In this document: positions 41,628-64,000 of the stretch, one piece after another
How the letters are laid out: each line of letters starts with the position of its first letter
Numbering within the stretch: position 1 is the first letter of the stretch
Assembly (NCBI RefSeq): GCF_003841465.1
Contig: NZ_REFZ01000010.1
Span: forward strand, 62,001-126,000
Reading direction: 5' to 3'
DNA: 64,000 bases
From: Natrarchaeobius oligotrophus
Lineage (GTDB): Archaea; Halobacteriota; Halobacteria; Halobacteriales; Natrialbaceae
Notes under the pieces: model-generated
The model's input: the letters and a program-made list of their open reading frames with translations, nothing else
What the model was told of the DNA's origin: nothing
The model's database searches: none
Position numbers and translations under genes: made by a program

Positions 41628-43835
41628 CTACCCGCCGTCCGGCCAGTCGATCTGGTCGGAACGGTAGTAGTTGATTTCCTGGCGGTCCCACCGTGGACCC
41701 TGTGCCGCCAGCCGCTCGCGGAAGTTCTCCCACTCGGTGTCGGCGTCGGGCGTCCAGCCGACCTCGGCGATGGAGGCGATCCGCGGGAACAGCATGAACT
41801 CGACGTCCGCGAACGTCTCGAGCGTCTCCGACCACAGCGCCGCTTCGGGACCGACGATCGAGGATTCGTCGACGTCGTCGACGTAGCTGCCAGGGTCCCA
41901 CTCGTAGGACTCTCGCACGGACGTCGTCCCGGCCCAGGTGAGGCCGAGTTCGGTCTCCCAGTGGTACTTCATATCGAGGTAGGCGTGGCTGGCCGGCGAG
42001 GCGATAATCTCGTGGCCCTCTTCGACGGCTCCCGGAACGTCGACGCCGGAGGCCGTCGAATCCGGTGCCCAGAACTGGCCGATCGTCTCCGTCGGCGGAT
42101 CCGCACCGAGGATCTCGTGCCAGCCCATCGGTCGCTTGCCGGCGTCCTGGACGATCGGTACTGCTCGATCCATGAAGTGCTCGTACTCGTCGTCGTCGAG
42201 CGGATCGGCTTCGTCGCCGCCGATGTGGAGATACGGCCCCGGAGTCAGCTCCGCGACCTCGGTGACGACGTCTTCGACCCACTCGTAGGTGAACTCCTGG
42301 TCGACACAGAGCGAACTGAACCCGACCTCGATGCCGGTGTAGGGCTCCTCGCACTCGTCGTCGCAGTTGAGTTCACAGACCGACGCCAGCGCTGCGTTCG
42401 TGTGGCCTGGCATGTCGATCTCGGGGATAACCGTGATAAATCGGTCCTCGGCGTGTTCGACGATATCGGCGTACTCCGCCTGGGTGTAGTAACAGTCCTC
42501 ACACTCGCCGTCGACCTGATACTGACCGCCGACCTCGGTCAACTCCGGCCACTCCTCGATCTCGATGCGCCAGCCCTGGTCGTCCGTCAGGTGAACGTGG
42601 AAGTGGTTGATCTTGTACTGGGCGAGGTAGTCGACGAACCGCTTCATCTCGTCGGCGGTGCGGAAGTGCCGCGCCACGTCCAAGTGTGCGCCGCGGAAGT
42701 CGAAACGCGGCGAGTCGACGATCTCGCCGCCGGGAACTGTCCACTCGGCGGACTGCTCGGAGTCAGCTTCCACCGCCGCGGGCAGGACCTGTCGGAGCGA
42801 CTGGACGCCCCAGAACAGCCCCGCGTCGGTCCCTGCACCGATCGTAACCCCGTCCTCGTCGACAGACAGCTCGTAACCCTCCTCGCCGAGGTCGTCCACG
42901 GCGTCCAGGAAGACGAGCTCGATCGCATCCGCCGCCTCCGACGGCGCATCTGCGACGGGCAGCTCGTATCCCGTCGGCGGACGAAGGAGGTCCGCGAGGT
43001 ACTCGCCGACCGCTTCGGCCTCGTCGTCGACGACGATCGCCGTCTCAGCCGTGATCTCGAACTCGGCGTCGGTCGTGCTCACGTCGGCCGGTTTCGGAAT
43101 TACGTCCTCGAGCGACCGCTCGACCGGATCGGGCACGTCGCCGCTACAGCGCGTGACCGCCCCCCAGGGACCGCCGTTTCCGGCGGGCTCATCGCTTTCG
43201 GTCCACCACCGTGCTTCCCAGAGGATACCGTCGTGGACGACCTCGTCACCGCCCTCGTAGACGGCGTCCGGGTTCCACTCCGCGATGCCGGCACAGGGGC
43301 CGTCTTCTTCGTCGCCGACGGTAACGATGACCGCGGCCGTATCCGTTCGCCCCTCGGCGTCGGTCACCGTCAGCGCCACGGCGTACTCGCCCTCCTCGGC
43401 GTAGCTGTGACTCGTCGTCTCGCCGGTCGCGTCGGCCTCGCCGTCGCCGGTGAGGTCCCACTCGTAGCTGTCGATCGACGCATCGCCGCCGCTGGAGCCG
43501 CTGGCGTCGAACTCGACCGTCTCGTCGAGTTCGACCGTCGTCGCCGAGACGGCGATCGACGCGGTAGGGTCCTCCGCTTCGCCGTTGTCCCCGCAGGCCC
43601 CCTCGAGAGCCCAGACTGCGCCATCGTCGTCGGGTTCGTCGCCTTGCGTCCACCACTCCGCGGTGAAGAGATCGGCCTCGTAGACGGCCAGATCGCCGCC
43701 GGTGTAGGCGACATCGGGGTCCCACTCGGGGATGCTCTCGCAGTCGACGGACGATGCTGCGCTCGCGCTGGCGGCGATCCCCAGCGCGGAGAGCGTCGAT
43801 GCCGATCGAAGGATCGAACGTCTGGTTGGTTTCAT
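41628..43835 (-). CDS. Secreted GH20 beta-N-acetylhexosaminidase with two CBM5/12 modules
   Basis: The protein has 735 residues. A Tat signal (KPTRRSILRSAS) is followed by CBM5/12 (about 34-80), PKD (about 90-170), a second CBM5/12 (about 177-225), the GH20 N-domain (about 240-370) and the catalytic barrel (about 380-720). The catalytic Asp-Glu pair is in HIGGDEADP (Asp541, Glu542); RGAHLDVARHF and HLTDDQGWRIEI are also typical. It removes terminal GlcNAc from chitooligosaccharides. Cys clusters (ECEDC; CELNCDDEC) may form disulphides. It starts 9 bp after gene J, and gene J starts 3 bp after gene K, forming an operon K-J-I. Confidence 0.96.
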   Translation of the reverse strand: MKPTRRSILRSASTLSALGIAASASAASSVDCESIPEWDPDVAYTGGDLAVYEADLFTAEWWTQGDEPDDDGAVWALEGACGDNGEAEDPTASIAVSATTVELDETVEFDASGSSGGDASIDSYEWDLTGDGEADATGETTSHSYAEEGEYAVALTVTDAEGRTDTAAVIVTVGDEEDGPCAGIAEWNPDAVYEGGDEVVHDGILWEARWWTESDEPAGNGGPWGAVTRCSGDVPDPVERSLEDVIPKPADVSTTDAEFEITAETAIVVDDEAEAVGEYLADLLRPPTGYELPVADAPSEAADAIELVFLDAVDDLGEEGYELSVDEDGVTIGAGTDAGLFWGVQSLRQVLPAAVEADSEQSAEWTVPGGEIVDSPRFDFRGAHLDVARHFRTADEMKRFVDYLAQYKINHFHVHLTDDQGWRIEIEEWPELTEVGGQYQVDGECEDCYYTQAEYADIVEHAEDRFITVIPEIDMPGHTNAALASVCELNCDDECEEPYTGIEVGFSSLCVDQEFTYEWVEDVVTEVAELTPGPYLHIGGDEADPLDDDEYEHFMDRAVPIVQDAGKRPMGWHEILGADPPTETIGQFWAPDSTASGVDVPGAVEEGHEIIASPASHAYLDMKYHWETELGLTWAGTTSVRESYEWDPGSYVDDVDESSIVGPEAALWSETLETFADVEFMLFPRIASIAEVGWTPDADTEWENFRERLAAQGPRWDRQEINYYRSDQIDWPDGG

Positions 43836-48991: not shown

Positions 48992-49368
48992 GATTGTGAG
49001 TTTCCGGGGTAGTAGCTCTCGTTCGTCGGAACGATCGTGCGCTCGGATGCGCCACCGTCCGTACCGAACGACGGCGTTCCGACCGGCATCGGACCGGCGA
49101 GCGTCGTCGTCCCCATCGTGGAATAGCAGGTGACGAGTTCTGACGAACTCGATCCCGTCGGTTGGTGGCCGCATACGTCGTGATCGTCGACCCGAGCACA
49201 GCGATGTTTTATCTTCAATATGGTAAAATAATTACGGTAAATGTAATTAGATCATTACATATTTCGCTAGCTTCTACTCGTTCCCTGGGGAACCGATGGC
49301 TCGACAGGGACGAAAACGCACGGTTCACCGCGGGCGGGCTCGTAACCGACGCGAAGCTGCGCGTCGGC
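48992..49368 (-). promoter_or_regulatory. Promoter region of gene L
   Basis: AT-rich DNA at 49203-49260 includes TTATTTTACC on the minus strand (49222-49231), about 235 nt before the ATG. This would give a leader of about 210 nt. The rest is featureless. Confidence 0.4.
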
Positions 49369-50865
49369 TTACGGTTCTAATGCGTCGTTGACCGCGTCGA
49401 CGAGCGTCTCGTTCGGATCGTGGCCCGACGCCCAGTACATCAGCGGATGGTCGTGTTCGGCAGCGTACTCGGCTTTGAGGCGGATCGACTCCTCGTCATC
49501 GTAGCCGAGCAGGTTCTCACCGTCGAACCGCCACGGCACCTTGGCCTCGGCGTCCCAGAATCGGTCGTAATCGTCGAACTGCTCCTGAATCTCCGGATAC
49601 GACGGAACGGCACCGGCGTCGGAAAACGGCTGGAACAGTCCGTCGTTCTCGTCGCGTTCGACGCCCGCGTACTCCCGTCCGTAAAACGCCAGGCCGAGGA
49701 CGAGGGCGCGTTTCGGCCACCCCTGGTCCAGCATGTACGTCATCGTGTTGTGGACCGACTTATCGGTCGGCGACTCCGGATTCGAGTACAACGGCGCGTT
49801 GTGATTTGTGTACTCGACCCAGTCCAGTCCGGGCGAGTGCATGTCGTAGGTCATCATCTTCGCGAAGTCGAGCACGTCGGCCAGAGCGTCGTGCTCGAGG
49901 ATCTCGAGGTGTTCCTCGTGAGCCGAAAGCGCCGCCGTGAGGTAGTATTCGGTACCGTCCTCCGCGCCAGCGTCGTCGAACTGTCGTCGACACTCGGCCA
50001 GCAGCGCCGTGAAGTTCTCGGGGTCGTCGTCGTAGGAAATGAGATCGTCGGGACCGAACGGACCGGGATACTCCCAGTCGATGTCGATCCCGTCGAGGTC
50101 GTGTTCGCGCATGAGCTCGACGCACTCGCTCGCGAACCGTTCGCGACTCTCGGCGTCGGCCGCGGTCTGTGGGAATCCGTCGGAGTTGCCCCAGCCGCCG
50201 ATCGACAACAACGTCACCGCGCCGTCGACGCCGCCGACGTCCCACGGTGCCGACACCGATCCGTCGGCCGAGACGTCACCGAACGTTTGGATGACGTGCG
50301 TGACCTTCTCGGCGGGCGCAGGGCCCGCGAACTCGTAGGCCATGACCGGGTGCTCTCCGCCAGGCCAGCCTTCGTCGTCCTCGTCGACCGTAACGACGGT
50401 TTCGGTGCTGTTCCGGTCACCGTCGATGCCGACGACGGTCAACGTGACGTCGTACTCACCCTCGTCCTCGTAGGTGTGGGTGACGACCTCGCCTTCGGTC
50501 TCGGTTCCGTCGCCGAGGCCCCACTCGTAGCGTTCGATCTCGCCGCTCGAGTCGGAGCCGTCGAGGGTGATTTCGTCGCCGGGATCGGGGCTCGCGTCGG
50601 AGACGTCGATCACGGCGTCCAGGTCGGGCTCGGCATCTTCGACCTCGTCCCAGGGCCCCCACTCGGTTTCTCCGGGCTCGTCGCCTCGGGTCCACCACCT
50701 GGCCTCCCAGATGGTTCCCTCGTGGACGACTCGGTCGCCGGACTCGTAGACCTCGTCCGGATCCCATTCGGGATACTTCGTGGCGACGCTGGTGGCACTA
50801 GCGCAGAGCAACAGTGCTGTTATTGACGATGCTGTACCGAGTACGGTACGTCGAGTTCGTTTCAT
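49369..50865 (-). CDS. Secreted GH18 chitinase M (CBM5/12-PKD-GH18)
   Basis: The protein has 498 residues from MKRTRRTVLGT (Tat). CBM5/12 lies at about 30-76 (YPEWDPDEVYESGDRV; ARWWTRGDEP), PKD at about 82-165, and a compact canonical GH18 domain at about 172-498. The catalytic motif LDGIDIDWE has Glu265. The barrel is shorter than in B, E, N and O and ends GHDPNETLVDAVND. The substrate-cleft strands MMTYDMHSPG and LAFYGREYAG are present. It has its own 298-bp upstream gap, with no strong TATA box seen. Confidence 0.94.
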   Translation of the reverse strand: MKRTRRTVLGTASSITALLLCASATSVATKYPEWDPDEVYESGDRVVHEGTIWEARWWTRGDEPGETEWGPWDEVEDAEPDLDAVIDVSDASPDPGDEITLDGSDSSGEIERYEWGLGDGTETEGEVVTHTYEDEGEYDVTLTVVGIDGDRNSTETVVTVDEDDEGWPGGEHPVMAYEFAGPAPAEKVTHVIQTFGDVSADGSVSAPWDVGGVDGAVTLLSIGGWGNSDGFPQTAADAESRERFASECVELMREHDLDGIDIDWEYPGPFGPDDLISYDDDPENFTALLAECRRQFDDAGAEDGTEYYLTAALSAHEEHLEILEHDALADVLDFAKMMTYDMHSPGLDWVEYTNHNAPLYSNPESPTDKSVHNTMTYMLDQGWPKRALVLGLAFYGREYAGVERDENDGLFQPFSDAGAVPSYPEIQEQFDDYDRFWDAEAKVPWRFDGENLLGYDDEESIRLKAEYAAEHDHPLMYWASGHDPNETLVDAVNDALEP

Positions 50866-51163
50866 AGTCGTGTTCGTGGTTCGAAGAGGGTGGATGAATT
50901 CGCAGGGACGTCGACCGAATCCGGAGCGAATTCGGCCGGTGTGATGCGAAGAGCACGCTCGTCTTCTCCTCAGATCAGCCGTCGATCGGAGTGCAGCTGA
51001 TCGGCTCGGTCCCGACGAAACGCAGCCGGACGTCACGGTTGCACGTCTCGAACGCACCACGTCGAATCGGAGACGTGAGCCGCTCGAGTCGTCGTTGATT
51101 CCGCTTTGCTGAATCGGCCGACGCTCCCGCCCGCCGGGACCGCCGGCGAACTGTTCGGTCGGT

Positions 51164-52906
51164 TCAGATGTTCTGGAGGATGGTGTCGAGCAGCGTCTCG
51201 TTCCAGTCCTGGGCGAGTTCCCAGAACATCACGCCCTGCATGCCGCGTTCTTTGGCGAACTCGACTTTCGCCTCGATGGCGGCCTCGTCGTCGTAGCTGA
51301 TGAAGATCCCCTCGTCCTCGTTGACGAGATAGGGGACCTCACCCATCTCGTGACGGTTGACCTCCCAGTCGTCGTCGTCGCGCATGTTCTCCTCGATGTC
51401 GCCGAAGTCGAACGCGCCGGTCGCGTCCTCGTCGTCCTCGAGGATGTGATGCCAGGTTCCCTCGGGGAGACCGCTGTAGTTCCCGCCGAGCTGGGGGGGA
51501 CTCTGCCACTCGCCGACGGAGAAGCCGCGGCCGTAGAACGGCATGCCGAGCACGAGTTCGTCGTACTCCGCGGGGTCGGCCGGCGGATACTCCCACTGGC
51601 CGGGCCAGTAGCCCTCCTCGCCGTGGTTGCCCGCCCACAGCTCGTCGACTGAGTACTCCGCCCAGTACTGTTCGCCATCCGGGTAGACGTCACGGTCGTT
51701 CGTCGGATGCGTGTCGGGACCGTACAGCGGCGCGTTCAGGCCGATGGTGTCCATCCACTCGCCGGTGAAGTCGTAGGCCATGACGTACACCGAGTCGCAG
51801 ATCTCGCCGATCTGATCGTGCCGGAGACCACCGGCGTTCCAGTCGGAACCGCCGTTTGCCACCGACAGGTAGTAGTACTGGCCGTCCTCGTCGGCCGCCT
51901 CGTCGAGCGCCTCGCGCAGGTCTTCGAGCAAGAGGACGTGAGTCTCGTAATCGTCGTCGTTGCCGCACTGGCACTGCCCCTGTTCGGGACCGGGGTGTTC
52001 CCAGTCGATGTCGACGCCGTCGAAGTTGTACTCGCGCATCAACTCGACGCAGTTCTGTGCGAACGTCTCGCGGGTGTCCGGATCCTCTGCGACGACGTGG
52101 AAGTCGTCGGACATGGTCCAGCCGCCGACCGAGAGGTGGAACCGACAGTCGACGTCGTCGGCCAGTTCCGCGAACTCCTCCAGGTTCTCCTCGTGGCTCT
52201 GGTGTGGAATGTCGAACTCCGTCTCGTCGTCCTCGGGCGGGAAGACGTTGCCCTGTGCGTCGAGATCGATGAACGCGTACAGGACGTCGGTCACCTTATC
52301 GAAGGGGATGTCGCTCGGATAGTAGTCCTGCTCCTCGTTGGCCTTCCAGCCGGGGTAGTAGCCGACGACCTTGAAGTCGTCGCCCGGCCCCTCGATCTCG
52401 TCGGTGACGGTCAGTTCGAGCGACGCGGTGTCGGTGTCGCCGTCGGCGTCGGTCACCGTGAGTTCGACGGTGTACTCGCCCGTCTCGTCGTACGAGTGGG
52501 TGACGACCTCGCCGGAGGCCTCGGTGCCGTCGCCGAGGTCCCACTCGTACTCCTCGATGTCGCCTTCGGAGCCGGAGCCGTCGAACTCGACCTCGTCGTC
52601 GACTTCGACGCGTGTTGCACTCGCCGCGACGTTCGCTTCCAGTTCCGGCGGCTCGGGATCCGATTCGACTTCGTCCCACGGACCCCACTGGCCGCCCTCG
52701 CCGGGTTCGTCGCCCTGGGTCCACCACCGGGCCTCCCAGATCGCCCCGTCGTGGACGACCCGGTCGCCGCCAGTGTAGACCGCGTCGGGATCCCATTCGG
52801 GATACTCCTGGTCCTGTGCTGCTACCACCGAACTCGCGCCGAGTCCGGCGAATAAAATCGATGCCTTCGATGCGTCGTTCAGTAGATCACGTCGTGATCG
52901 TTTCAT
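51164..52906 (-). CDS. Secreted GH18 chitinase N (CBM5/12-PKD-GH18)
   Basis: The protein has 580 residues from MKRSRRDLLND (Tat). CBM5/12 lies at about 34-80 (YPEWDPDAVYTGGDRV; ARWWTQGDEP), PKD at about 90-170, and canonical GH18 at about 178-580. The motif FDGVDIDWE has Glu303, followed by a QCQCGNDDD cysteine insert as in gene E. The GH18 domain is nearly the same as in E, while signal, CBM5/12 and PKD differ. It lies only 92 bp after gene O and may share its transcript. Confidence 0.95.
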   Translation of the reverse strand: MKRSRRDLLNDASKASILFAGLGASSVVAAQDQEYPEWDPDAVYTGGDRVVHDGAIWEARWWTQGDEPGEGGQWGPWDEVESDPEPPELEANVAASATRVEVDDEVEFDGSGSEGDIEEYEWDLGDGTEASGEVVTHSYDETGEYTVELTVTDADGDTDTASLELTVTDEIEGPGDDFKVVGYYPGWKANEEQDYYPSDIPFDKVTDVLYAFIDLDAQGNVFPPEDDETEFDIPHQSHEENLEEFAELADDVDCRFHLSVGGWTMSDDFHVVAEDPDTRETFAQNCVELMREYNFDGVDIDWEHPGPEQGQCQCGNDDDYETHVLLLEDLREALDEAADEDGQYYYLSVANGGSDWNAGGLRHDQIGEICDSVYVMAYDFTGEWMDTIGLNAPLYGPDTHPTNDRDVYPDGEQYWAEYSVDELWAGNHGEEGYWPGQWEYPPADPAEYDELVLGMPFYGRGFSVGEWQSPPQLGGNYSGLPEGTWHHILEDDEDATGAFDFGDIEENMRDDDDWEVNRHEMGEVPYLVNEDEGIFISYDDEAAIEAKVEFAKERGMQGVMFWELAQDWNETLLDTILQNI

Positions 52907-52998: not shown

Positions 52999-54813
52999 TC
53001 AGCCGTTCAGGTTGTCCCAGAGCGTGCCGATGAGGTCACCCTCGTAGGTGTCTCCGCCGATGGCCCACAGCATCGTCCCCCCGTAGGGCGACTGCCGGAG
53101 CCACTGCATCTTGGCTTCCATCGACTCCTGGGATTCGTAGCTGATCATCTCCCGGCTGTCGGCGTTCCAGGCCCACGCGGCGACCGCGTCCTCGTCGTAG
53201 TAAACCTCCCAGTCGGGGCTGTCCAGGTCGACGGAGTTGCTCCCACCGCGGCCGTCGCCCTCGAGGTCGAACCACTCGAAGACGCCGCCAAGCTGGGAGC
53301 CGGGCTCGCCGAACGCCGGGTAGGAGCCGTCCATGCTGGCGTCCTCGCCTTCGCCCTCGAACTCCTGGAAAAGACCGTCGTCCTCGCCGGTGCCGACGTC
53401 GTCTTCGGGCGGCTGGACGTCGTCCCAGCTCCGGCCGTAGAACGGGACGGCCATGTTGAGCTGGTCGGGATCCCAGCCCTGTTCCTCCCAGTACTGGAGT
53501 GCGTACTCGGCGTTCCAGGCGTCTGCTTCCTCGAACGGATCGTCCGGGTTCGGCTTCAGCGGAGCGTGGTGGCGGGTCGTCTCCGACCAGATTCCCGCGT
53601 AGTCGAACGTCATCACCAGGATGAAGTCCAGAAGCTCCGAGAGCTTCTCGTGCTCGAGTCCGTCGTTGCCGTCCTCGACGCCTTCGACGACGTCGGGGTT
53701 GGCCGAGACCGCAGCGGTGAGCTCGTAGGGCTCGTCGCGACCGACCTCCTGGGCGTGCTCGTCCAGGCGCTCGCGCACCGTCTCGCAAAGCAACGTAAAG
53801 CGCTCCTGGTCGCCCTCGCGGACGATGTTGCCGTCGCTCGGACAGACGCTGGCGGGTTCCTCGGCGTCTTCGGACGTACAGCCGCCGCCGCCGGGGAACT
53901 CCCAGTCGATGTCGATGCCGTCCAGATTGCCCCGCTCGATCCACTCGATGCAGTCCTCGGCAAAGCGCTCCCGGTTCTCCTGGGTCAGCGCCGCGTCGGA
54001 GAAGTACCGCGAGTCGCCCCAGCCGCCGATCGACAGGACGAACTTGGTGTCGTCGTGCTCGGCGGCGTGTTCGGCGAAGGTTCCGCCCTCGACGCCCTGC
54101 CACTCCTCCTCGGCCCAGAAGGCCTGCTGGCCGTGGGAGTCGCCGACGAGGTTGACCGAGCCGTCCGACTCGGGACGGGCGAACGCGTACTGCACGTGCG
54201 TGACCTGGTCGTAGGGGATGTCCGCCGGCACGAAGTCGCGGTCGTACTGCGCCCACTGGCGGTAGTACGCGACGACGCGCTTTTCGTCCGACGATGGACG
54301 GCCTGCCGTGATCCTGATCGAGTCGGTGTCGGTGTCGCCGTCTGCGTTCTCGACGGTCAGCGTCACGTCGTACTGGCCTTCGTCGAACGAGTGCGTGACG
54401 ACCTCACCGCTTGCCTCCGTTCCGTCGCCGAACTCCCACTCGTAGGATTCGATCTCGCCTTCGGAGTCGGAGGCGTCGAACTCGACTTCGTCTCCGGGGT
54501 CCGGGAACTGATCGCTGACGGAAAACGACGCGGTCGGTCCCTCGGGCGGTTCCGGTTCGGGACCGTTGTGCTCTTCGATTTCCTCCCAGGGTCCCCACTC
54601 GTTTGCACCGGGTTCGTCGCCCTGGGTCCACCACTGGGCCTCCCAGACGTAGCCCTCGTAAATGACCCGATCACCCCCCGTGTATACGGTGTCGGGGTCC
54701 CACTCGGGATACTCGTCGCTCTCGGCAGCGACGGCACCGCTGGCTCCGATTCCGGCCAGTAGCGCGGACAGTTTCGTTGCGTTACTCAGAACGGTTCGGC
54801 GTGTTCGTTTCAT
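52999..54813 (-). CDS. Secreted GH18 chitinase O (CBM5/12-PKD-GH18)
   Basis: The protein has 604 residues. Tat signal KRTRRTVLSNATKLS, CBM5/12 (about 35-82), PKD (about 95-178), canonical GH18 (about 188-604). The catalytic motif LDGIDIDWE has Glu305. The next loop holds a Cys-rich insert (GGGGCTSEDAEEPASVC). MTFDYAGIW and VPFYGRSW are the cleft strands, as in gene B. The 5' 234 bp are nearly identical to gene F. It is the first gene of the array in transcription order. Confidence 0.95.
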   Translation of the reverse strand: MKRTRRTVLSNATKLSALLAGIGASGAVAAESDEYPEWDPDTVYTGGDRVIYEGYVWEAQWWTQGDEPGANEWGPWEEIEEHNGPEPEPPEGPTASFSVSDQFPDPGDEVEFDASDSEGEIESYEWEFGDGTEASGEVVTHSFDEGQYDVTLTVENADGDTDTDSIRITAGRPSSDEKRVVAYYRQWAQYDRDFVPADIPYDQVTHVQYAFARPESDGSVNLVGDSHGQQAFWAEEEWQGVEGGTFAEHAAEHDDTKFVLSIGGWGDSRYFSDAALTQENRERFAEDCIEWIERGNLDGIDIDWEFPGGGGCTSEDAEEPASVCPSDGNIVREGDQERFTLLCETVRERLDEHAQEVGRDEPYELTAAVSANPDVVEGVEDGNDGLEHEKLSELLDFILVMTFDYAGIWSETTRHHAPLKPNPDDPFEEADAWNAEYALQYWEEQGWDPDQLNMAVPFYGRSWDDVQPPEDDVGTGEDDGLFQEFEGEGEDASMDGSYPAFGEPGSQLGGVFEWFDLEGDGRGGSNSVDLDSPDWEVYYDEDAVAAWAWNADSREMISYESQESMEAKMQWLRQSPYGGTMLWAIGGDTYEGDLIGTLWDNLNG

Positions 54814-55374: not shown

Positions 55375-56541
55375 TCAAGCCGTCTCGGCAGGGCTGCTGG
55401 TTTCGGGGACCGAGGTCGAATCGATCGGTTCGTCGCTGTGTTTGATCGCGTCGCCGGTTTCGGCGTCGAACAGGTGCATCTTCGCGGCCGGTACGTGCAT
55501 GTACAGCCGATCGCCGGCACTTGCACCCGTTTTCCCGTCGGTCGTGACCGTCACCGACTCGCCGCCGATGTCGAGATAGACGTTCGTCACGTCACCCATC
55601 GGCTCCGTGACGGTAACCTCCGTCTCGATGAGCCGATCGGGTTCGCCGTGGGTCTCGGGCGTATCCGTGAGTTCGATGTGTTCGGGTCGGATTCCAAGCA
55701 CGAGATTCGGCGAGTCGATCTCGGCCGCTACCGAATCGGACACCGGGAGCGTAAACATCGAATTTCGTAGCGCTCCGTTCTCGAGGTCGGCCTCGACGGT
55801 GAGGAAGTTCATCGGCGGCGAGCCGAGGAAGCCGGCGACGAACTGGTTCGCCGGCCGGTGGTAACACTCGAGTGGCGTCCCGACCTGTTGGAGCTGTCCG
55901 TCGTTGAGGACGACGATGCGGTCGCCCATCGTCATCGCTTCCGTCTGGTCGTGGGTGACGTACACCGTCGTCACGTCCAGTTCGTTCTGTAGCTGTTGAA
56001 GCTCCGTGCGCATCTGTGCACGAAGCTTGGCGTCGAGATTCGACAGCGGCTCGTCCATCAGGAACACCTCCGGATCGCGCACGATCGCCCGACCGAGCGC
56101 AACGCGCTGTTGTTGACCGCCAGACAGCGCCTTCGGTTTGTCCTCGAGCAGTTCCTCGATACCCATCATTTCGGCGGTGTCCTCGACGCGTTCGTTGATC
56201 TCTTCTTTCGAGAGATCCGTCGACATCTTGAGCCCGAAGGCCATGTTCTCTCGCGCAGTCATGTGCGGGTACAGCGCGTAGTTCTGAAACACCATCGCGA
56301 TGTCGCGCTCTTTCGGTTTCTGGTCGGTGACGTCTTCGTCGTCGAACTGGATCGATCCTCCGGTCACCGTCTCCAGACCGGCCACACAGCGAAGCGTCGT
56401 CGACTTCCCACAACCGGAGGGACCGACGAAGACGACGAATTCTCCGTCGTCGATGGCGAGATTCAGATCGTCGACCGCGACGATCGACCCGCCGGGCGAG
56501 TTGTACTCCTTCGTCAGATTATCGATGATGACACGGCTCAT
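55375..56541 (-). CDS. Sugar ABC transporter ATPase, MalK/UgpC type
   Basis: The protein has 388 residues. Walker A GPSGCGKST (about 39-47), Q-loop FQNYALYPHM, signature LSGGQQQRVAL (about 140) and Walker B VFLMDEPLSNLDAK. The C-terminal part (about 240-375) is the MalK-type regulatory OB-fold with LGIRPEHIEL. These domains define the CUT1 (oligosaccharide) importers and may receive regulatory signals. It lies 208 bp downstream of the MalG-type permease and has a TATA box at leaderless distance, so it can be transcribed alone and may serve more than one transporter. Confidence 0.94.
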   Translation of the reverse strand: MSRVIIDNLTKEYNSPGGSIVAVDDLNLAIDDGEFVVFVGPSGCGKSTTLRCVAGLETVTGGSIQFDDEDVTDQKPKERDIAMVFQNYALYPHMTARENMAFGLKMSTDLSKEEINERVEDTAEMMGIEELLEDKPKALSGGQQQRVALGRAIVRDPEVFLMDEPLSNLDAKLRAQMRTELQQLQNELDVTTVYVTHDQTEAMTMGDRIVVLNDGQLQQVGTPLECYHRPANQFVAGFLGSPPMNFLTVEADLENGALRNSMFTLPVSDSVAAEIDSPNLVLGIRPEHIELTDTPETHGEPDRLIETEVTVTEPMGDVTNVYLDIGGESVTVTTDGKTGASAGDRLYMHVPAAKMHLFDAETGDAIKHSDEPIDSTSVPETSSPAETA

Positions 56542-56749: not shown

Positions 56750-57676
56750 TTACTGCTTGACGCTGCCCTCCGTCAGCCCCTCGACGATCGGCTTCTGGAA
56801 GAGGACGAACAGGACGAGGATGGGTGCCGTCGCCACGGTCGACGCCGCCATCATCTCACCCCAGTACGCCGTCGTCTGCGTCTCGAAGCTCTGAATGCCG
56901 ATCGCAAACGGCGTCACGTCGCCACTTGCGAGAATCGACGCGAACAGCACCTCGTTGAAGGCGACGAGGAAGACGAACATTCCGGTCGCCGCAATTCCCG
57001 GTGCGGCCATCGGGAGAATAATGCGGACGAGCGCCTGTATTCGCGAACAGCCGTCGACCCGTGCCGCCTCCTCGACGGAGTCAGGGATCGTGTCGAAAAA
57101 GCCCCTGAGCATCCAAATTGCGACGGGAACGGTGAACGTCGTGTAGACGAAGATGATTCCGTGGTAGGTGTTGACCATCGGGAATCCGATGTTGTTCTGG
57201 ATCCAGATGAACATCAGGTACATCGGGAGCAGGATGAGAATACCCGGGATCATCTGCGTCCCGAGCAGGGCACCGCCAACGGCCCCCTTCCCGGGGAACC
57301 GGTACTTCGAGAAGGCGTACCCGCCCAGGCAGCCGACCACGAGGGCGAATCCGGTCGTCGTCATAGCGATGACGAGACTGTTGATGAAGTAATCTAACAC
57401 CGGGAATCGGCCCCACATGGTGACGTAGTTCTCGTAGTGGAGAATTTCGAGGAGAATCACGGGGTCCTGAACGATCAACGGAATCTCCGAGAGTTCGATC
57501 GGCAGCAGTTGCGGGTCTGCGGCCGTAATTTCGGTTCGAGTCCGGAAACTCGAGATGATCATCCAGTAGATGGGAAACAGCGCGAACAGCAACAGACAGC
57601 CTAGAATTCCTCTCGAGAGGAGGTCGAACAGCTGGTCTTTGGCGGACGGCGAGAGCCGCAGTTCGTCGGGAATCAT
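56750..57676 (-). CDS. Sugar ABC transporter permease, MalG type
   Basis: The protein has 308 residues with six hydrophobic segments, the first at about 20-40 (GILGCLLLFALFPIYWMII). The docking motif with EEAARVDGCSRIQALVRIILP near residue 200 fits the EAA loop of CUT1 permeases. Its start overlaps the MalF-type gene by 4 nt (ATGA), so the two subunits are translated together and form the membrane channel. Confidence 0.94.
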   Translation of the reverse strand: MIPDELRLSPSAKDQLFDLLSRGILGCLLLFALFPIYWMIISSFRTRTEITAADPQLLPIELSEIPLIVQDPVILLEILHYENYVTMWGRFPVLDYFINSLVIAMTTTGFALVVGCLGGYAFSKYRFPGKGAVGGALLGTQMIPGILILLPMYLMFIWIQNNIGFPMVNTYHGIIFVYTTFTVPVAIWMLRGFFDTIPDSVEEAARVDGCSRIQALVRIILPMAAPGIAATGMFVFLVAFNEVLFASILASGDVTPFAIGIQSFETQTTAYWGEMMAASTVATAPILVLFVLFQKPIVEGLTEGSVKQ

Positions 57677-58659
57677 TCGTCACCCTCCGTGAAGTCGTCG
57701 TCGAAAAGATATTTGTAATAGATCATCGCCATCGTCATCGCGATGATAAAGAGGACCACGCTCATCGCGGCCCCTCGCCCGAACTGGTAGTTCGAGAAGG
57801 CGAACTCGTAGATGTACAGAATACCGACCTGGCCCGAACGTGGCGGCTGTGCGCCCAGCAAGACGTACGGTGCGGTGAAGTTGATCATCGTCCACAGCAT
57901 CACCAGCAACACGACGACGGCTGAAACCGGCTTTAGCTGCGGGAACGTGATGTAGCGGAACTTCTCCCACCGGCCGGCACCGTCGATAGACGCGGCCTCG
58001 TACAGCTGTTCGGGAATTCCCTGGAGGCCTGCGTAGAGCATGATCATGACAAGCGGAAACTGCGTCCAGGAGTGGGTGAGGACGAGCGTCCAGATGGCGT
58101 TGTCACCGATCAACCAATAGATCGGCTCGTTGATGAGACCGATCGAGAGCAGAATGTTGTTGATGATTCCGCTCTGTTGCTGGAACATCATCCGCCAGAT
58201 GAGCAGCGTGACGACGACCGGAGCGACCCACGGGAGCAACAGGAGGGTCCGCGCCACGAATCGCCCTTTGAATTGCTGGTTGAGGACCAGCGCTGCCGTC
58301 AGTCCGAGGACGTACGTCACCACGAGCGACCCGACCGCGAAGATGACCGTCTGACGGATCGAGAACCAGAATCGACTGCCAACGACGGTGCCCGGGTCGA
58401 GCACGTCGAAGTAGTTCTCGAGCCCGACGAGCGGCGCTCTGTGCCACTGTTGGGCGTAGGTCGAGTTGACGCCCATAAAGCTGATGAGCGTACCCCAGAT
58501 GATCGGGAGAAAGTGAATAATACACATCATCGCAAGCCCCGGAGCGAGGAGCTTGTACGCAAAGCGCTGTTCTTCGGATAGCCGACTGTAAAACGGGAGG
58601 TAGTTCCCGAATTGCACGTCGGCTAGTCGTCTTCGAAACTGTCTCGTCGTACTCGCCAT
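57673..58659 (-). CDS. Sugar ABC transporter permease, MalF type
   Basis: The protein has 328 residues and six main hydrophobic segments, the first at about 36-58. The EAA loop reads LYEAASIDGAGRWEKFRYI near residue 220. The N-terminus is a short hydrophilic cytoplasmic stretch. An ATTAATCC stretch about 27 nt upstream (58681-58690, minus strand) may be a TATA box, so the permeases can be transcribed apart from the binding protein, which is typical when high amounts of binding protein are made. Confidence 0.93.
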   Translation of the reverse strand: MASTTRQFRRRLADVQFGNYLPFYSRLSEEQRFAYKLLAPGLAMMCIIHFLPIIWGTLISFMGVNSTYAQQWHRAPLVGLENYFDVLDPGTVVGSRFWFSIRQTVIFAVGSLVVTYVLGLTAALVLNQQFKGRFVARTLLLLPWVAPVVVTLLIWRMMFQQQSGIINNILLSIGLINEPIYWLIGDNAIWTLVLTHSWTQFPLVMIMLYAGLQGIPEQLYEAASIDGAGRWEKFRYITFPQLKPVSAVVVLLVMLWTMINFTAPYVLLGAQPPRSGQVGILYIYEFAFSNYQFGRGAAMSVVLFIIAMTMAMIYYKYLFDDDFTEGDE

Positions 58660-58837: not shown

Positions 58838-60115
58838 CTACAGCGTCTGGTGTGCGACTTCGGCAGCGTCGTCGAGGACATCCTCGACGTCTCCCTCTTC
58901 GAGGTCGCCGGTCACGGCGTTCTGGATGACCTCGGCGACGGCTCTGTTGAGTTCGCCCTCGATCTCGCCCCAGCCGAGCACCTGCGGGTACGTCTGTGCA
59001 ACCGGGAAAACGTCCTCGTTGAACGCCTCGTACAGATCGTGGTCGAAGTACTCGGTGTCGAATCCGTCGGGGTTAGTCGGCAGGAATCCGATCGTACTCG
59101 AAATTTCGGCGTTGGGTTCGGCGCGCAGCAGGTAGTCGATCCACTGTGCGGCCGCCTCGGGTTCGTCGGTCCACGGGTGGATGCCGAGCAGTTCCATACC
59201 GAAGAACGTGCCGCCGTCGCCGTCGGGACCGACCGGCGGGGCGGAGATCGAGAGGTCGTCCAGCGACTGGCCGTCCTCATCTTCGTACGCGCCGACCGTT
59301 CCGAGGGCGTCGACCGTGCTGGCCATCTGTCGGCCCGCGAACGCGCCGTTGATGTCGGCTGCGGCCCACTCGACCGTCTCCGACGGCATCACGTCGTACT
59401 CCTGGTACAGATCGGCGTAGAACTCGAGTGCCTGGACCCCCTCCTCGTTGTGGAACGCCGGCTCGGAGTAGTCGTCGGTGAGCAACTGTCCGCCGCTCTG
59501 CCAGAGGAACATCGCGAAGTTCCGCATGGGCTCGAAGTCCGACCCCATCAGTGCGAAGTAGTGGTTATCACCGTCGTAGGCCTGTGCCTGATCGACGAGG
59601 TCGTCCCAGTCGTCGGGATGTCCGTCGACGCCGCCATCCTCGACCTCTTCGTCGATCTGCTGCCACGCGCGCGGCCCCCAGAACCACGGGATGCCCACGA
59701 TGTCACCCTGGAACGTCGCGACGTCCATCGCACCCTCTTCGAACATGCCGGTGTCCGGGATGTGATCGACGACCTCGTCGGACTCCAGGTCCATCCAGCC
59801 GCCCGCATCGGCCTGTTCCGGAATCCACGTCGACGCGATCTCTTGAACGTCAGGGCCGGTCTGGCTCGTGATGTCGCTCAAAAGCGTCTCCTGAGCCTCA
59901 CCCCATCCGACGAACTCGAACTCCACGTGGATTCCGGTCTCCTCTTCGAAGATTTCGGCGTGTTCTTCGAAGTACTCTTCGGCACCGGGAGCATCCATGT
60001 ACCGCGTTTCGATCGTCGTCGGCCCATCGTTGTCTCCGCCGATACACCCCGCAAGACTGAATGCAGTCGCTGCACCTGTCGTTGCAAGCACCTTCCGCCG
60101 GGTATGACGTCTCAT
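58838..60115 (-). CDS. Sugar ABC transporter substrate-binding lipoprotein, SBP family 1
   Basis: The protein has 425 residues. Twin-arginine TRRKVL at 5-10 and lipobox LAGC with Cys24 anchor it outside the membrane. The family-1 (MalE/UgpB-like) fold shows YFEEHAEIFEEETGIHVEFE near 47-66 and PWFWGPRAWQ near 145. The C-terminal LNRAVAEVIQNAVTGDLEEGDVEDVLDD-type segment is typical of CUT1 proteins. It heads the transporter divergently from the enolase-family gene. Position right after the chitinase array suggests GlcNAc or chitooligosaccharides as ligand, which is inference. A TATA box (TGTATAAT, about 60145-60154) lies upstream. Confidence 0.93.
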   Translation of the reverse strand: MRRHTRRKVLATTGAATAFSLAGCIGGDNDGPTTIETRYMDAPGAEEYFEEHAEIFEEETGIHVEFEFVGWGEAQETLLSDITSQTGPDVQEIASTWIPEQADAGGWMDLESDEVVDHIPDTGMFEEGAMDVATFQGDIVGIPWFWGPRAWQQIDEEVEDGGVDGHPDDWDDLVDQAQAYDGDNHYFALMGSDFEPMRNFAMFLWQSGGQLLTDDYSEPAFHNEEGVQALEFYADLYQEYDVMPSETVEWAAADINGAFAGRQMASTVDALGTVGAYEDEDGQSLDDLSISAPPVGPDGDGGTFFGMELLGIHPWTDEPEAAAQWIDYLLRAEPNAEISSTIGFLPTNPDGFDTEYFDHDLYEAFNEDVFPVAQTYPQVLGWGEIEGELNRAVAEVIQNAVTGDLEEGDVEDVLDDAAEVAHQTL

Positions 60116-60310: not shown

Positions 60311-61462
60311 ATGCAAATCACCGACTACGAACTGTTCGAAGTTCCGCCCCGCTGGCTCTTTCTGAAGATCGAGACCGACGCCGGCGTCGTCGGGTGGGGG
60401 GAGCCGATCGTCGAAGGGCGAGCGCGAACCGTGCGCACCGCCGTCGAAGAGGTGATGAACAGCTATCTGGTGGGGAAGGATCCGCACAACATCGAGGATC
60501 ACTGGCAGGCGATGTACCGGGGCTGTTTCTACAGAGGTGGACCAGTTCTGATGAGCGCGATCGCGGGCATCGATCAGGCGCTCTGGGACATCAAAGGAAA
60601 GAGCTTCGACGTTCCCGTCTACGAGCTGCTGGGTGGGCAGACTCGAGATCGGATCCGCGTCTACCAGTGGATCGGCGGCGATCGCGTCACCGAGATCGGA
60701 GCCGAGGCGAAACAGCTGGCCGACGCCGGATACACCGCGTTGAAGATGGACGCGTCGAACCAGATGCGCCACCTCGAGCCTCCCGAAGCGGTCGGCGACG
60801 TCGTCGAACGCGTCCGTCACGTTCGCGACGTAGTTGGAGACGGAATGGACATCGTCGTCGATTTCCGGGGACGCATCTCGAAATCGCTCGCCAAGCGGGT
60901 CATCGCGGCGCTCGAGGAGTTCGATCTGCTGTTCGTCGAAGAGCCCGTGCTTCCGGAGAACCTCGAGTATCTGCCGACGCTCGCCGAGCGAACGAACGTC
61001 GCGATGGCGACGGGTGAACGACTCTACTCCCGGTGGGATTTCAAACCGCTGTTCGCGCGGGGCGGCGTCGACGTGATTCAGCCGGACGTCTCTCATGCTG
61101 GCGGAATCTCGGAGCTGGTCCGAATCGCCGCGATGGCAGAGACCCACGACGTCGCCGTTGCACCGAACTGTCCACTCGGTCCGATCGCGCTCGCCGCGTC
61201 GCTGCAGGTGAGCGCGTACATTCCGAATCTTCTCGTACAGGATCACGGGTTCGACATCTACCCGGCACCGAAAAGCGCCGCGGACCACTACCTCCACGAC
61301 TCGTCGGTGTTCGAGTTCGTCGACGGATACCTCTCTCCGCTCGACGGTGCCGGTCTCGGCCTCGAAATCGACGAATCAGCCGTTCGAAAGCGATCACGCC
61401 AGGAACTCGACTGGTCGAACCCGATCTGGCGACACGAAGACGGCAGTATCGCCGAGTGGTAA
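60311..61462 (+). CDS. Enolase-superfamily dehydratase-like protein related to galactonate dehydratase
   Basis: The protein has 383 residues, the same length as bacterial DgoD. The N-terminal capping domain (1-120) is followed by the barrel. Metal ligands are likely Asp in VVDFRGRIS, Glu in FVEEPVLPENL and Glu in TGERLYSRWDF. In DgoD the acid/base residues are two histidines in DFHGR and HCPLGPIAL. Here both are changed: DFRGR has Arg and NCPLGPIAL has Asn. So although the fold and sequence are close, the reaction may differ, for example acting on another sugar acid or using another base. The divergent sugar transporter suggests a role in degrading the imported sugar. Confidence 0.87.
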   Translation: MQITDYELFEVPPRWLFLKIETDAGVVGWGEPIVEGRARTVRTAVEEVMNSYLVGKDPHNIEDHWQAMYRGCFYRGGPVLMSAIAGIDQALWDIKGKSFDVPVYELLGGQTRDRIRVYQWIGGDRVTEIGAEAKQLADAGYTALKMDASNQMRHLEPPEAVGDVVERVRHVRDVVGDGMDIVVDFRGRISKSLAKRVIAALEEFDLLFVEEPVLPENLEYLPTLAERTNVAMATGERLYSRWDFKPLFARGGVDVIQPDVSHAGGISELVRIAAMAETHDVAVAPNCPLGPIALAASLQVSAYIPNLLVQDHGFDIYPAPKSAADHYLHDSSVFEFVDGYLSPLDGAGLGLEIDESAVRKRSRQELDWSNPIWRHEDGSIAEW

Positions 61463-61967
61463 TCCGTCTCGGAGTCGAACTCCGAAGCCTCGCATCGTCT
61501 CGCTGTTTTATCGTGGAGACGGCTAGCGCCGTTACACTCCCTGCGTGCGTGTACGTCGCGCGTCGATTCCGCTGTGGTCGCTTTCGGCGACCGCGTCGGC
61601 CGGAGAACCCGTCCGCTCGCCGCGGCGTTTCGGTAGGAGAAACAGCGGCGGAAATAGAAGGGAACGCCGACGAACCGCCGCTCGCGCCCCGTATGCGTGA
61701 AGTTATCATTCATGCCAGTGACGTCGCCGCCGCGATCATTCGCCACCTCGTCCGAACGATTTTTTCGGAGTACGAAACAAAAGCGCGCATTGCGCCCGAT
61801 TATCACGCTCGAACCGAGAGTCAATTACAGCCGTACAGCTGTAATATACGGTCGTAATTCGGCTGTGTTTCGGCTATCGAAACGCCAGTGTCACGACGGT
61901 GTGGACTCGAACGTCGCGAGACGAACCGAACGAACCGGATCTGAACGAATACGCGTCCGACGACCGA
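61463..61967. other. Intergenic region between convergent genes, 505 bp
   Basis: The region lies between two 3' ends. A perfect inverted repeat ATTACAGC-N6-GCTGTAAT is at 61824-61845. A 54-codon frame (61693-61857, plus) has no matching motif and crosses the inverted repeat. No other feature was seen. Confidence 0.45.
61824..61845. repeat. Perfect 8-bp inverted repeat with 6-bp spacer
   Basis: ATTACAGC and GCTGTAAT are exact inverted copies around CGTACA. The size fits a dimeric regulator's operator or a small hairpin. It is not in front of a recognised gene. Confidence 0.6.
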
Positions 61968-62669
61968 TCAGCCCAGGTACTCGTCGGCCTGCTCGTGGAG
62001 CGGGACGAACCCTTCGGCGCTCGCGGCCCCCGTTCGTTTCCCGAGCGTGGCGTCCTCGGCTGCGACGCCCTCGATGAGGTTGTCGAACTCCGCATCGATG
62101 CCGCCGTGTTCCTCGAGGAACTCGACCTGTGACTCGTGGTGGTCGATAGCCGCGGCCTTTCGGTCTTCGTAGCCGGAGACGTCGACGAACACCGTCGGCT
62201 CGAACGACGACGTCGGCTTTCCAAAGAAGTAGACGTTGTCGGGATCGGACGGCTCGTGGTCCGTTTCGACCAGCGGGAGCGAGGACATGTAGTAGGCGTC
62301 GGTCACGAGGCGAGACGTCACCCGGTGGTCGGGGTGCAGGTCCTCACGGTAGTGAGTCAGGATGAGGTCCGGATCGTGTTCGCGGATCGTCTCGACGATC
62401 GCGAGGCGGTTCTCGAGGGAGTACTCGATGCGCCCGTCCTCGAAGCCGAGAAACGTCACGTCGGTCGCGCCGAGTTCCGCTCCCGAGCGGCGAGCTTCCT
62501 CGGCTCTCGTCTCCGCGATCGCGGCTTCGTTCTCGTCGAAACCACCGTACTCGCCTTTCGTCATGTGCGCGATCGTAACGGTATCCCCGCGGTCTGCGTG
62601 TTTCGCCAGCGTCCCCCCACAGAAGATATCTGCGTCGTCGGGATGTGCAACGATTGCTAACAACTCCAT
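61968..62669 (-). CDS. PIG-L/LmbE family zinc deacetylase, candidate diacetylchitobiose deacetylase
   Basis: The protein has 233 residues from MELLAIVAHPDD; a start 15 nt upstream adds only MWLLH. The zinc motif AHPDD (His9, Asp11, Asp12) and the later HPDHR (near 117) are complete. The family removes acetyl groups from GlcNAc in various compounds, and in Thermococcus and Pyrococcus a PIG-L enzyme deacetylates diacetylchitobiose in chitin breakdown. There is no signal peptide, so it works inside the cell. Next to a sugar transporter and 7 kb from the chitinase array, this role is likely but unproven; mycothiol- or GPI-type substrates do not fit an archaeon. Confidence 0.9.
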   Translation of the reverse strand: MELLAIVAHPDDADIFCGGTLAKHADRGDTVTIAHMTKGEYGGFDENEAAIAETRAEEARRSGAELGATDVTFLGFEDGRIEYSLENRLAIVETIREHDPDLILTHYREDLHPDHRVTSRLVTDAYYMSSLPLVETDHEPSDPDNVYFFGKPTSSFEPTVFVDVSGYEDRKAAAIDHHESQVEFLEEHGGIDAEFDNLIEGVAAEDATLGKRTGAASAEGFVPLHEQADEYLG

Positions 62670-62740
62670 GTGCAACAGCCACATCGAAACGGATCTATTT
62701 CAGGATAACGGACCGTCCCGGCCGAACGTCCACGGAGCGG

Positions 62741-63487
62741 TCACTCGAGCGCGGAGGTGAGCATCCGACTCGCGCTGAGTAACAGTCCCGGAATGTTCTC
62801 TTCGAACCGCTTTCCCGAAAGCTCGTCCGCCTGGCCGGAGACGTAGACGGCGGAGACGAAGTCGTCGGTCCGCAGGCTGACGGCGACGCTGTTGACGTCC
62901 GGGAACTGCTCCTGGCGATCGAGCGAGAAACCGCGCTCGCGGATGCGATTGAGCTCCATCGAGAGCTCGTCGCGATCGGTGATGGTGTGGTCGGTCAGCG
63001 CCGGACAGGTCTCGAGGATGGAATCGATCCGTCGCTCGGGTAGCTCCGCGAGAATCGCTTTTCCGGCGGCGCTGCAGTGGAGGTAGCGCGTGTTGTACGC
63101 GGGGAACGTCCCGCTGTAGTACTGGTCAGCACAGTAGACGTCGATCGCGACGCCGTCTCGCTCGACGACGAGACCCGCGACCTCGTTTGCCATCTCCGCC
63201 AGCTCGTCGACCGGATCGCGAACGGTCCGGATCAGCTCGTTGTTCCACTCGAGCCGGCGAGCACAGTCGAGCAATCGAATCGACGGTCGGTACCGACTCT
63301 CGACTTTCTCGGCGTATCCGAGGGAGACGAGCGTGTTCACGTGTTTGTACGCCGTACTCTTGGTCACGTCGGTCCGGGACGCGATCTCGGTGACGCCCAC
63401 CGGCCGTGGCGCGTCGACGAGCACGTGCAGTACCGAGAACGACCGAACGGTCGCTTCGATCGCTTCCCCCTCCGTTTGCGTACTCAT
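62741..63487 (-). CDS. IclR family transcriptional regulator
   Basis: The protein has 248 residues. An N-terminal winged helix-turn-helix (about 8-68; GVTEIASRTDVTKSTAYKHV is the recognition part) is followed by the IclR ligand-binding domain (about 80-248) with the HCSAAGKAILAELPE motif near 130-145. IclR proteins in haloarchaea control sugar catabolism genes. It is divergent from the SelA-like gene with an 95-bp gap, so it likely regulates that gene and perhaps itself. The effector could be a sugar acid or phosphate. Confidence 0.93.
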   Translation of the reverse strand: MSTQTEGEAIEATVRSFSVLHVLVDAPRPVGVTEIASRTDVTKSTAYKHVNTLVSLGYAEKVESRYRPSIRLLDCARRLEWNNELIRTVRDPVDELAEMANEVAGLVVERDGVAIDVYCADQYYSGTFPAYNTRYLHCSAAGKAILAELPERRIDSILETCPALTDHTITDRDELSMELNRIRERGFSLDRQEQFPDVNSVAVSLRTDDFVSAVYVSGQADELSGKRFEENIPGLLLSASRMLTSALE

Positions 63488-63551
63488 ACCGCGGGCTTCG
63501 GATCGAACCGATATCAGTGTTTCCCAGATCGAAACGGCAGCGGAACCGAAC

Positions 63552-63575
63552 TTTTTTATTCACTATGCACTGAAT
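63552..63575 (+). promoter_or_regulatory. TATA box and possible operator of the SelA-like gene
   Basis: TTTTTTATT (63552-63560) is centred about 27 nt before the ATG at 63583. It is followed by TTCACTATGCACTGAA, an imperfect inverted repeat (TTCA...TGAA) that overlaps the expected transcription start and could bind the divergent IclR regulator. The operator is a guess. Confidence 0.45.
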
Positions 63576-63582
63576 GGACTCC

Positions 63583-64000
63583 ATGGACAGGGCTGTCGAA
63601 GTCAAATCTATCTACGAAGAGCTAGGCGTCCCCGCTGTGGTCAATGCGACCGGAACGAAAACGCGAATCGGCGGAAGCCGCATCCGCAGCGAAGCGATCG
63701 ACGCGATGAAACGAGCCGGCGACTCTTTCGTTCGAATCTCCGATCTACAGGCCGAAGCCAGCGAACGAATCGCCGAGGTGACCGGCGCGGAAGCGGGATA
63801 CGTGACGAGCGGTGCATCCGCAGGGCTCCTGCTCAGCGCCGCCGCTGCACTCGCCGGCCGCGACGTCCACCGGATGGACCTCCTTCCCGAGACGACCGGC
63901 TTCGCCGACGAGATCGTCATGCCCCGAACGCACCGAACCGGCTACGACCACGCGTTCCGGGCCGCCGGCGCGACGATCGTCGACGTCGGCACCAACGACA
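63583..64000 (+). CDS. SelA/DgaE-like PLP-dependent enzyme, 3' end outside the window
   Basis: The first 139 residues are visible and the frame is open to the window end. ELGVPAVVNATGTKTRIGGSR and TGAEAGYVTSGASAGLLLSAAA are typical of the family of L-seryl-tRNA(Sec) selenium transferase-like enzymes that includes D-glucosaminate-6-phosphate ammonia-lyase. The PLP lysine lies further on and is not seen. The ATG at 63583 fits the TATA box for a leaderless mRNA; one at 63574 adds three residues. Selenocysteine synthesis is not expected in haloarchaea, so an amino-sugar-acid or amino-acid lyase is more likely. Together with the IclR regulator and PIG-L deacetylase this supports amino-sugar catabolism. 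Confidence 0.75.
   Translation, partial: MDRAVEVKSIYEELGVPAVVNATGTKTRIGGSRIRSEAIDAMKRAGDSFVRISDLQAEASERIAEVTGAEAGYVTSGASAGLLLSAAAALAGRDVHRMDLLPETTGFADEIVMPRTHRTGYDHAFRAAGATIVDVGTND

Follow-up and report, generated by a model that had tools for sequence, protein, structure and literature searches.

The question raised by this locus is what an enzyme of the galactonate dehydratase kind may do when both of its catalytic histidines have been replaced and its gene lies among genes for chitin and amino sugars. The window (the whole stretch of DNA analysed, 64,000 nucleotides, G000:C10:62001-126000) belongs to a haloarchaeal genome of 4.6 Mb, and the gene encodes a member of the enolase superfamily, of the MR/MLE type, as seen from the MR_MLE_N and MR_MLE_C domains matched in Pfam and from the barrel fold of its AF2 model (pLDDT 87.9, with 32 sequences in the alignment). 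By sequence, its best relative in the PDB carries the name 'putative D-galactonate dehydratase' (3rr1, E 8.3e-127), and a structure comparison of the model places 3rra first (Z 51.5, rmsd 2.2, 371 aligned residues, 51% identity). The overall length (383 residues) is conserved relative to the D-galactonate dehydratase DgoD, as a preliminary description had noted. Against NF010624, the NCBIfam model of galactonate dehydratase, the protein scores 575.7 bits for a cut-off of 311, and by this measure it is a member of the family.

The active site, on the other hand, departs from that of DgoD. The preliminary description had read DFRGR in place of DFHGR and NCPLGPIAL in place of HCPLGPIAL, and both readings are found in the open reading frame (DFRGR as residues 184-188, with the R186 codon at 60866-60868), whereas 3rr1 carries the histidine forms and differs moreover by N instead of D in the KxN motif and by E instead of D in QEQ. 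In DgoD of Escherichia coli, the two histidines are presumably His185, the general acid, and His285, the general base. Such roles find some support in the title of a work cited in PMC11219438 (Wieczorek 1999), which speaks of a 'new' general acid catalyst. In the window protein, R186 stands where the beta-3 histidine would act as general acid and N286 where the beta-7 histidine would act as general base, while D259, the aspartate partner of the latter, is present. The three carboxylates expected as metal ligands at the ends of beta-3, beta-4 and beta-5 (D184, E210 and E236) are kept, as is K145, so that the remark that the motifs were otherwise conserved holds for these four residues and fails for D147, D311, G313 and F314, all of which differ from the forms with both histidines. 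The AF2 model puts residues 147 and 186 immediately after strands 143-146 and 180-184, a placement that agrees with the mouth of the barrel. The acid/base sites seem to have been replaced and not simply emptied, since an acidic residue, D147, occupies the KxN site; other residues at the acid/base positions, an outcome that the preliminary description had set against its own reading, are therefore found in part, but D147 counts for little by itself because four more distant relatives, with both histidines in place, vary at 147 as well. From these alignments, D147 with K145, or R186, could be the substitute acid/base, and a catalytic base is not evident, because the protein has neither the beta-7 histidine nor a KxK lysine.

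The same replacements recur in other haloarchaea. Among 109 distinct aligned sequences, residues 147/186/286 read D/R/N in 36, all of them haloarchaeal, N/H/H in 69, S/R/H in three and A/R/H in one, and no mixed forms occur beyond these last four. By definition, the R/N set carries D147, R186 and N286, whereas H186 and H286 define the H/H set, and the letters at these positions are therefore fixed by choice; outside the definitions, the N/H/H sequences have N147 in 69/69, D311 is present in 36/36 R/N sequences against E in 69/69 N/H/H, G313 in 35/36 against S in 69/69, and F314 in 36/36 R/N sequences. With thresholds of 93% and 85%, the positions that separate the two sets are 141, 147, 186, 286, 311, 313, 314 and 344, while K145, D184, E210 and E236 are common to both. 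Among the best 80 of 247 confirmed relatives there are 18 bacterial loci, every one of them N/H/H. In a quick tree (no bootstrap), built without ten columns that include every swapped active-site position, the R/N sequences form one clade (SH-aLRT 95), with L026 on a long branch; its sister (SH-aLRT 86) is the group of four odd sequences of Halohasta/Halobellus type, and the N/H/H sequences make up the remainder. The tree thus suggests a single recruitment, and the beta-3 change from His to Arg may have preceded the other swaps, because the sister group has R186 but retains H286.

These four odd sequences (L066, L071 and L078 of Halohasta type and L073 of Halobellus, gene from 10001 to about 11150), which stand outside both sets and outside the neighbour counts given below, combine R186 and H286 with S or A at 147. 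Residue 311 is A in the two of them shown, the metal ligand E236 has become Q in the three of Halohasta type, and genes for an FGGY kinase and a class II aldolase are found among their neighbours, with PdxA near L073 and L078.

The nearest named orthologues of the window protein come from Halobiforma nitratireducens (94%) and Natrarchaeobius chitinivorans (92%). Against four related sequences the gene gives dN/dS values of 0.05-0.16 (0.030/0.573 for L010, 0.042/0.789 for L011, 0.082/1.425 for L014 and 0.141/0.887 for L015), ratios that are rough because synonymous changes are many and that indicate purifying selection. Chance, a pseudogene or a sequencing error as the origin of the R/N pair are ruled out by the 36 distinct sequences in one clade together with dN/dS. 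Since purifying selection goes with a retained metal site, the sequences indicate that the protein is most likely an active enzyme. That it might instead be a catalytically dead enolase fold kept for binding or regulation would fit the loss of both acid/base histidines and the variable Asp of the His-Asp pair (residue 259 is D in 69/69 N/H/H sequences and V, A or N in the R/N sequences L112, L115, L118, L014 and L026); the metal ligands and K145 are nevertheless kept, and D311 and F314 are present in 36/36, none of which is obviously required in a dead site, and we regard a dead protein as quite improbable.

The genes around the enzyme are listed in Table 1 with its active-site residues.

Table 1. 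Position of the enolase-superfamily gene, its active-site codons and the neighbouring features; positions are those of the window unless preceded by L119, the locus that continues past its end.
Feature	Position	Strand	Basis or remark
R/N-type enolase-superfamily protein (DgoD paralogue), P0001, 383 aa + stop	60311..61462	+	ORF
K145-M146-D147, end of beta-2 (KxN site in DgoD)	60743..60751	+	N at 147 in 69 N/H/H sequences
D184 (metal ligand)-F185-R186 (H in DgoD), end of beta-3	60860..60868	+	alignment with 3rr1 and relatives
E210, metal ligand retained	60938..60940	+	invariant in alignment A1; E in every motif class of first set
E236, metal ligand retained	61016..61018	+	E throughout the R/N and N/H/H sets; Q in L066, L071, L078
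N286, in place of beta-7 histidine	61166..61168	+	alignment with 3rr1 and relatives
D311-H312-G313-F314, beta-8 region	61241..61252	+	N/H/H sequences mostly E-Q-S-L
PIG-L (CE14-type) deacetylase	61968..62684	-	PF02585 E 2e-33
IclR-family regulator	62741..63487	-	PF01614, PF09339
Palindrome GTTTCC-N5-CGAAAC, possible operator	63519..63535	+	between IclR and DGA genes
PLP D-glucosaminate-6-P ammonia-lyase homologue (DGA), start	63574..64000, continuing L119:3574-4812	+	7lc0 E 1.3e-47
RidA	L119:4920-5306		past window end, after DGA
Glucose-dehydrogenase-like gene	L119:5303-6364		past window end, after RidA
ABC sugar-binding protein, divergent from enolase gene	58838..60115	-	PF13416, PF01547
ABC permease	57673..58659	-	PF00528
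ABC permease	56750..57676	-	PF00528
ABC ATPase	55375..56541	-	PF00005
GH18 chitinase with CBM5/12 + PKD	52999..54813	-	PF00704 E 7.7e-72
GH18 chitinase with CBM5/12 + PKD	51164..52906	-	PF00704 E 1.7e-63
GH18 chitinase with CBM5/12 + PKD	49369..51060	-	PF00704 E 4.8e-60
GH20 beta-N-acetylhexosaminidase	41628..43835	-	PF00728 E 1.9e-83

All five GH18 matches of the genome (E <= 1e-20) fall within the window, and the neighbours rule out an ordinary DgoD in a galactose cluster. Three further proteins with CBM5/12 and PKD but no Pfam match to a catalytic domain lie among the chitinases (43845-45266, 45270-47186 and 47369-49174). The DGA neighbour is a homologue of D-glucosaminate-6-P ammonia-lyase whose substrate assignment is putative, with 223 bits against TIGR01437 (cut-off 385.3) and 213.6 bits against NF047797 (cut-off 600), below both thresholds; a second copy, 75% identical, is found at G000:C10:57343-58533 (L141), its start some 4.7 kb ahead of the window. 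In this genome, a search with the nagB model gave no match and nagA gave only short matches below threshold, so that the usual GlcNAc-6-P route is not apparent.

For haloarchaea, N-acetylglucosamine and glucosaminate together, PMC12343721 (2025) was the sole match in the open-licence literature, where no paper was found that links the enolase superfamily with glucosaminate or that treats His185/His285 of galactonate dehydratase within the superfamily. According to PMC12343721, the chitinase clusters of Natrarchaeobius contain DGA, GAD (galactonate dehydratase), GDH, IclR and RutC, and the linked gene set of its predicted haloarchaeal glucosamine oxidation pathway is present here, with DGA, deacetylase, glucose dehydrogenase, RidA/RutC and IclR genes all adjoining the enolase gene (window and L119). 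This article calls the RutC/RidA gene a repressor; its counterpart here is by score a Rid-family detoxifying hydrolase (151.9 bits against TIGR00004, cut-off 106.25) that falls below the RutC cut-off (82 bits for 169.1).

The palindrome GTTTCC-N5-CGAAAC is also found exactly upstream of DGA in L012-L018 and L069, and with up to one mismatch it gives six listed matches in the window (one site counted twice, on both strands) for 0.52 expected. That the enolase gene and DGA share an operator was rejected, since the palindrome lies ahead of DGA, but a comparison of eight loci gave no palindrome common to several species within 160 bases upstream of the enolase gene. Copies with one mismatch lie downstream of the enolase gene (61627-61643 and 61867-61883), and exact copies are present directly downstream of it in L015-L018 and L074, as well as ahead of the second DGA copy (L141:9757).

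Across loci, the company of the gene differs from that of its histidine-bearing relatives. DGA is nearby in 26/28 R/N loci versus 0/51 haloarchaeal N/H/H loci, the PIG-L deacetylase in 22 versus none, RidA in 18 versus none, the sugar-binding protein in 21 versus none, the GH18a cluster in 14 versus none, the glucose dehydrogenase in 22 versus two and IclR in 26 versus 16, counts that are not independent because many loci are close relatives, and which come from a home-made composition-based gene caller and from an N/H/H set in which some contigs are short or cut. The 18 bacterial N/H/H loci, kept outside this comparison, gave no match to DGA, PIG-L or RidA. Only two R/N loci have no counted DGA, L126, with DGA elsewhere in the genome, and L138, where it lies mostly ahead of the stretch covered (G106:C3:420665-421864). 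L133 and L134 show the same-strand run DGA-PIGL-RidA-GAD, and L020 DGA-GAD. The score against NF010624 and the identity of about 60% to N/H/H haloarchaeal relatives would also suit an ordinary D-galactonate dehydratase in which the substitutions do no harm, but both catalytic histidines are lost, an N/H/H paralogue coexists with the R/N gene in genome G272 (L105 and L123), and DGA, PIG-L and RidA are missing from all the haloarchaeal N/H/H loci, so that this origin of the conserved scores seems most improbable. Related species retain these replacements beside amino-sugar genes, and the R/N protein therefore probably has a new activity other than galactonate breakdown.

DGA can do without the R/N gene: none was found near 20 further DGA loci, three of these (L141, L157 and L159) being second or unlinked DGA copies in genomes that carry the R/N gene. 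Five of the 20 do contain an enolase-superfamily protein, of the P0005 type in L143, L146 and L147, partial in L140 and distant in L149, and with the ten queries used the other 15 gave no match. The P0005-type protein, with KxK and a beta-7 His, lies in clusters of DGA, PIG-L, RidA and glucose dehydrogenase (L143:13451-14566, L146:4645-5760 and L147:12800-13915), and its best PDB relatives are 2oqh and 4dye, named isomerase. Another protein of about 330-340 residues, cluster c31, is present in both R/N and DGA-only loci (L026:20020-21015, L143:10644-11669 and six more), with no Pfam match for the L143 copy and no NCBIfam match for the L147 copy.

At the level of genomes, the R/N variant is found in 40 of the 391 haloarchaeal genomes sampled. 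A DNA motif for N286 detected it in 36, one copy each and at the correct place in the gene (in G016, G051, G053, G076, G083, G169 and G212, N286 alone was seen by this motif, the gene not being aligned under that handle), and alignment added G183, G360, G277 and G106. DGA (E <= 1e-60) is present in 88/391 genomes, including 40/40 with the R/N gene. Because the DNA pattern had missed four R/N genomes, the 48 DGA genomes without the R/N form were checked directly, through 52 matches to the window protein at E <= 1e-100; in the 51 loci read (all except G243:C8:288836) no R/N form was found, 50 keeping both histidines and L180 ending before site 286. Eight distant relatives from DGA genomes that retain both histidines (L206, L207, L208, L210, L176, L177, L179 and L209; 51-56% identity) include four with D at metal site 210 and four with S, V, P or G at 147 (52-54% identity).

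GH18 chitinases occur in 50 genomes, namely 30/40 with the R/N gene, 10/48 with DGA only and 10/303 others, so 30/40 versus 20/351 for presence and absence of the R/N gene; the Fisher p-values of the genome-level associations are tiny, but they ignore relatedness. The ten R/N genomes without a GH18 match could mean that the enzyme handles a sugar acid unrelated to chitin, as a generalist or with another substrate, its gene being merely co-regulated. These genomes too carry DGA, however, and DGA, PIG-L and RidA accompany the gene in most or many R/N loci across several families, which makes such a substrate improbable.

A changed substrate or reaction is thus well supported by the joint active-site swaps, the intact metal site, purifying selection and the genes of glucosamine catabolism. 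The changed reaction announced in the preliminary description stands in this wider form, which does not extend to a change of reaction type as such, and its candidate substrates, glucosaminate and N-acetylglucosaminate, agree with the neighbourhood. The reading that we favour, tentatively, is that haloarchaeal galactonate dehydratase has a paralogue that was recruited into the oxidation of chitin amino sugars, where it would act on a sugar acid with an amino or acetamido group at C2, D-glucosaminate or N-acetyl-D-glucosaminate. With rather less assurance, we propose that a non-histidine acid/base set (D147/K145 and R186) eliminates water, and with RidA also ammonia, from (N-acetyl)glucosaminate, which would provide haloarchaea that feed on chitin with a second route, independent of PLP, from chitin amino sugar to ketodeoxygluconate. 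Among the possible activities, a dehydratase feeding RidA appears the most likely, because its gene partners match an oxidative GlcN route, no nag route is evident and the beta-2 change from Asn to Asp alters the charge.

In such a mechanism, the Mg2+ held by D184, E210 and E236 would bind the carboxylate of the sugar acid. D147, with K145 on the beta-2 side, would pair with the C2 nitrogen and/or take the C2 proton, and from what is known of the family, the Asn to Asp change would add a negative charge where the C2 ammonium or amide may sit. R186 would then assist the departure of the C3 hydroxyl, and the resulting enamine or imine could be hydrolysed by RidA to 2-keto-3-deoxygluconate and ammonia. 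Archaeal chitobiose deacetylases are known to remove only part of the acetyl groups of chitobiose, which would yield GlcN and GlcNAc and thereby the source of both acids, so that two lyases may work side by side, the PLP lyase on one acid (GlcN- or GlcNAc-derived) and the R/N enzyme on the other.

The dehydration step is possibly redundant, because DGA is present in all 40 R/N genomes and in 48/88 DGA genomes it occurs without the R/N form. DGA by itself could convert glucosaminate to ketodeoxygluconate, and the presence of RidA is equally explained by DGA; the two enzymes would be reconciled if one took the free acid and the other the N-acetylated acid. The R/N enzyme might also act on a chitin-derived amino-sugar acid without dehydration, through epimerisation at C2 or a step on a lactone or a lyase product. 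With DGA already a lyase, the retention of both genes would be explained by a different step, and the P0005-type proteins with relatives named 'isomerase' in comparable clusters, together with a gene near DGA in L133 that weakly resembles epimerase/isomerase models (217.7 bits for a cut-off of 600), point the same way. Nevertheless, two-base epimerisation requires bases on both faces and the beta-7 His is Asn in the R/N protein, so we consider a step of this kind unlikely, although deserving some weight.

Should the enzyme act on glucosaminate or its N-acetyl form, as we favour, it would fill an unassigned slot in the archaeal oxidative chitin route and would show how the enolase scaffold can exchange its acid/base set while retaining the metal site. 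In any case, annotation as galactonate dehydratase is likely to be wrong across the clade found in 40/391 haloarchaeal genomes, because NF010624 accepts both members tested (P0001 and L026) far above its cut-off.

Compared with known systems, the R/N protein is closest to D-galactonate dehydratase (DgoD/GalD; NF010624, 3rr1/3rra), which it resembles in length, domains, metal ligands and K145, and from which it differs by R186 and N286 for the two histidines, D147 for N, D311 for E and a chitin/amino-sugar neighbourhood. With the D-mannonate/D-gluconate dehydratases (3vcn, 3ow1 and 3tw9) it shares the fold (Z about 45), whereas identity is only about 30% and the score against NF043051 (D-mannonate dehydratase ManD) is 249.8 bits for a cut-off of 550. 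Precedent for the proposed chemistry exists in cis-3-hydroxy-L-proline dehydratase, an enzyme of the superfamily that forms an imine by dehydrating a beta-hydroxy alpha-amino acid, although the R/N protein is not a member of that family (NF043002, 80.3 bits for a cut-off of 500). Finally, the locus has the same kinds of genes as the GlcNAc pathway predicted for Natrarchaeobius in PMC12343721, which runs through deacetylation, oxidation, phosphorylation and DGA; the main text of that article names 'galactonate dehydratase' (GAD) once, in the legend of Figure 5, and its functional-genome section assigns no step to GAD and mentions no residue change.
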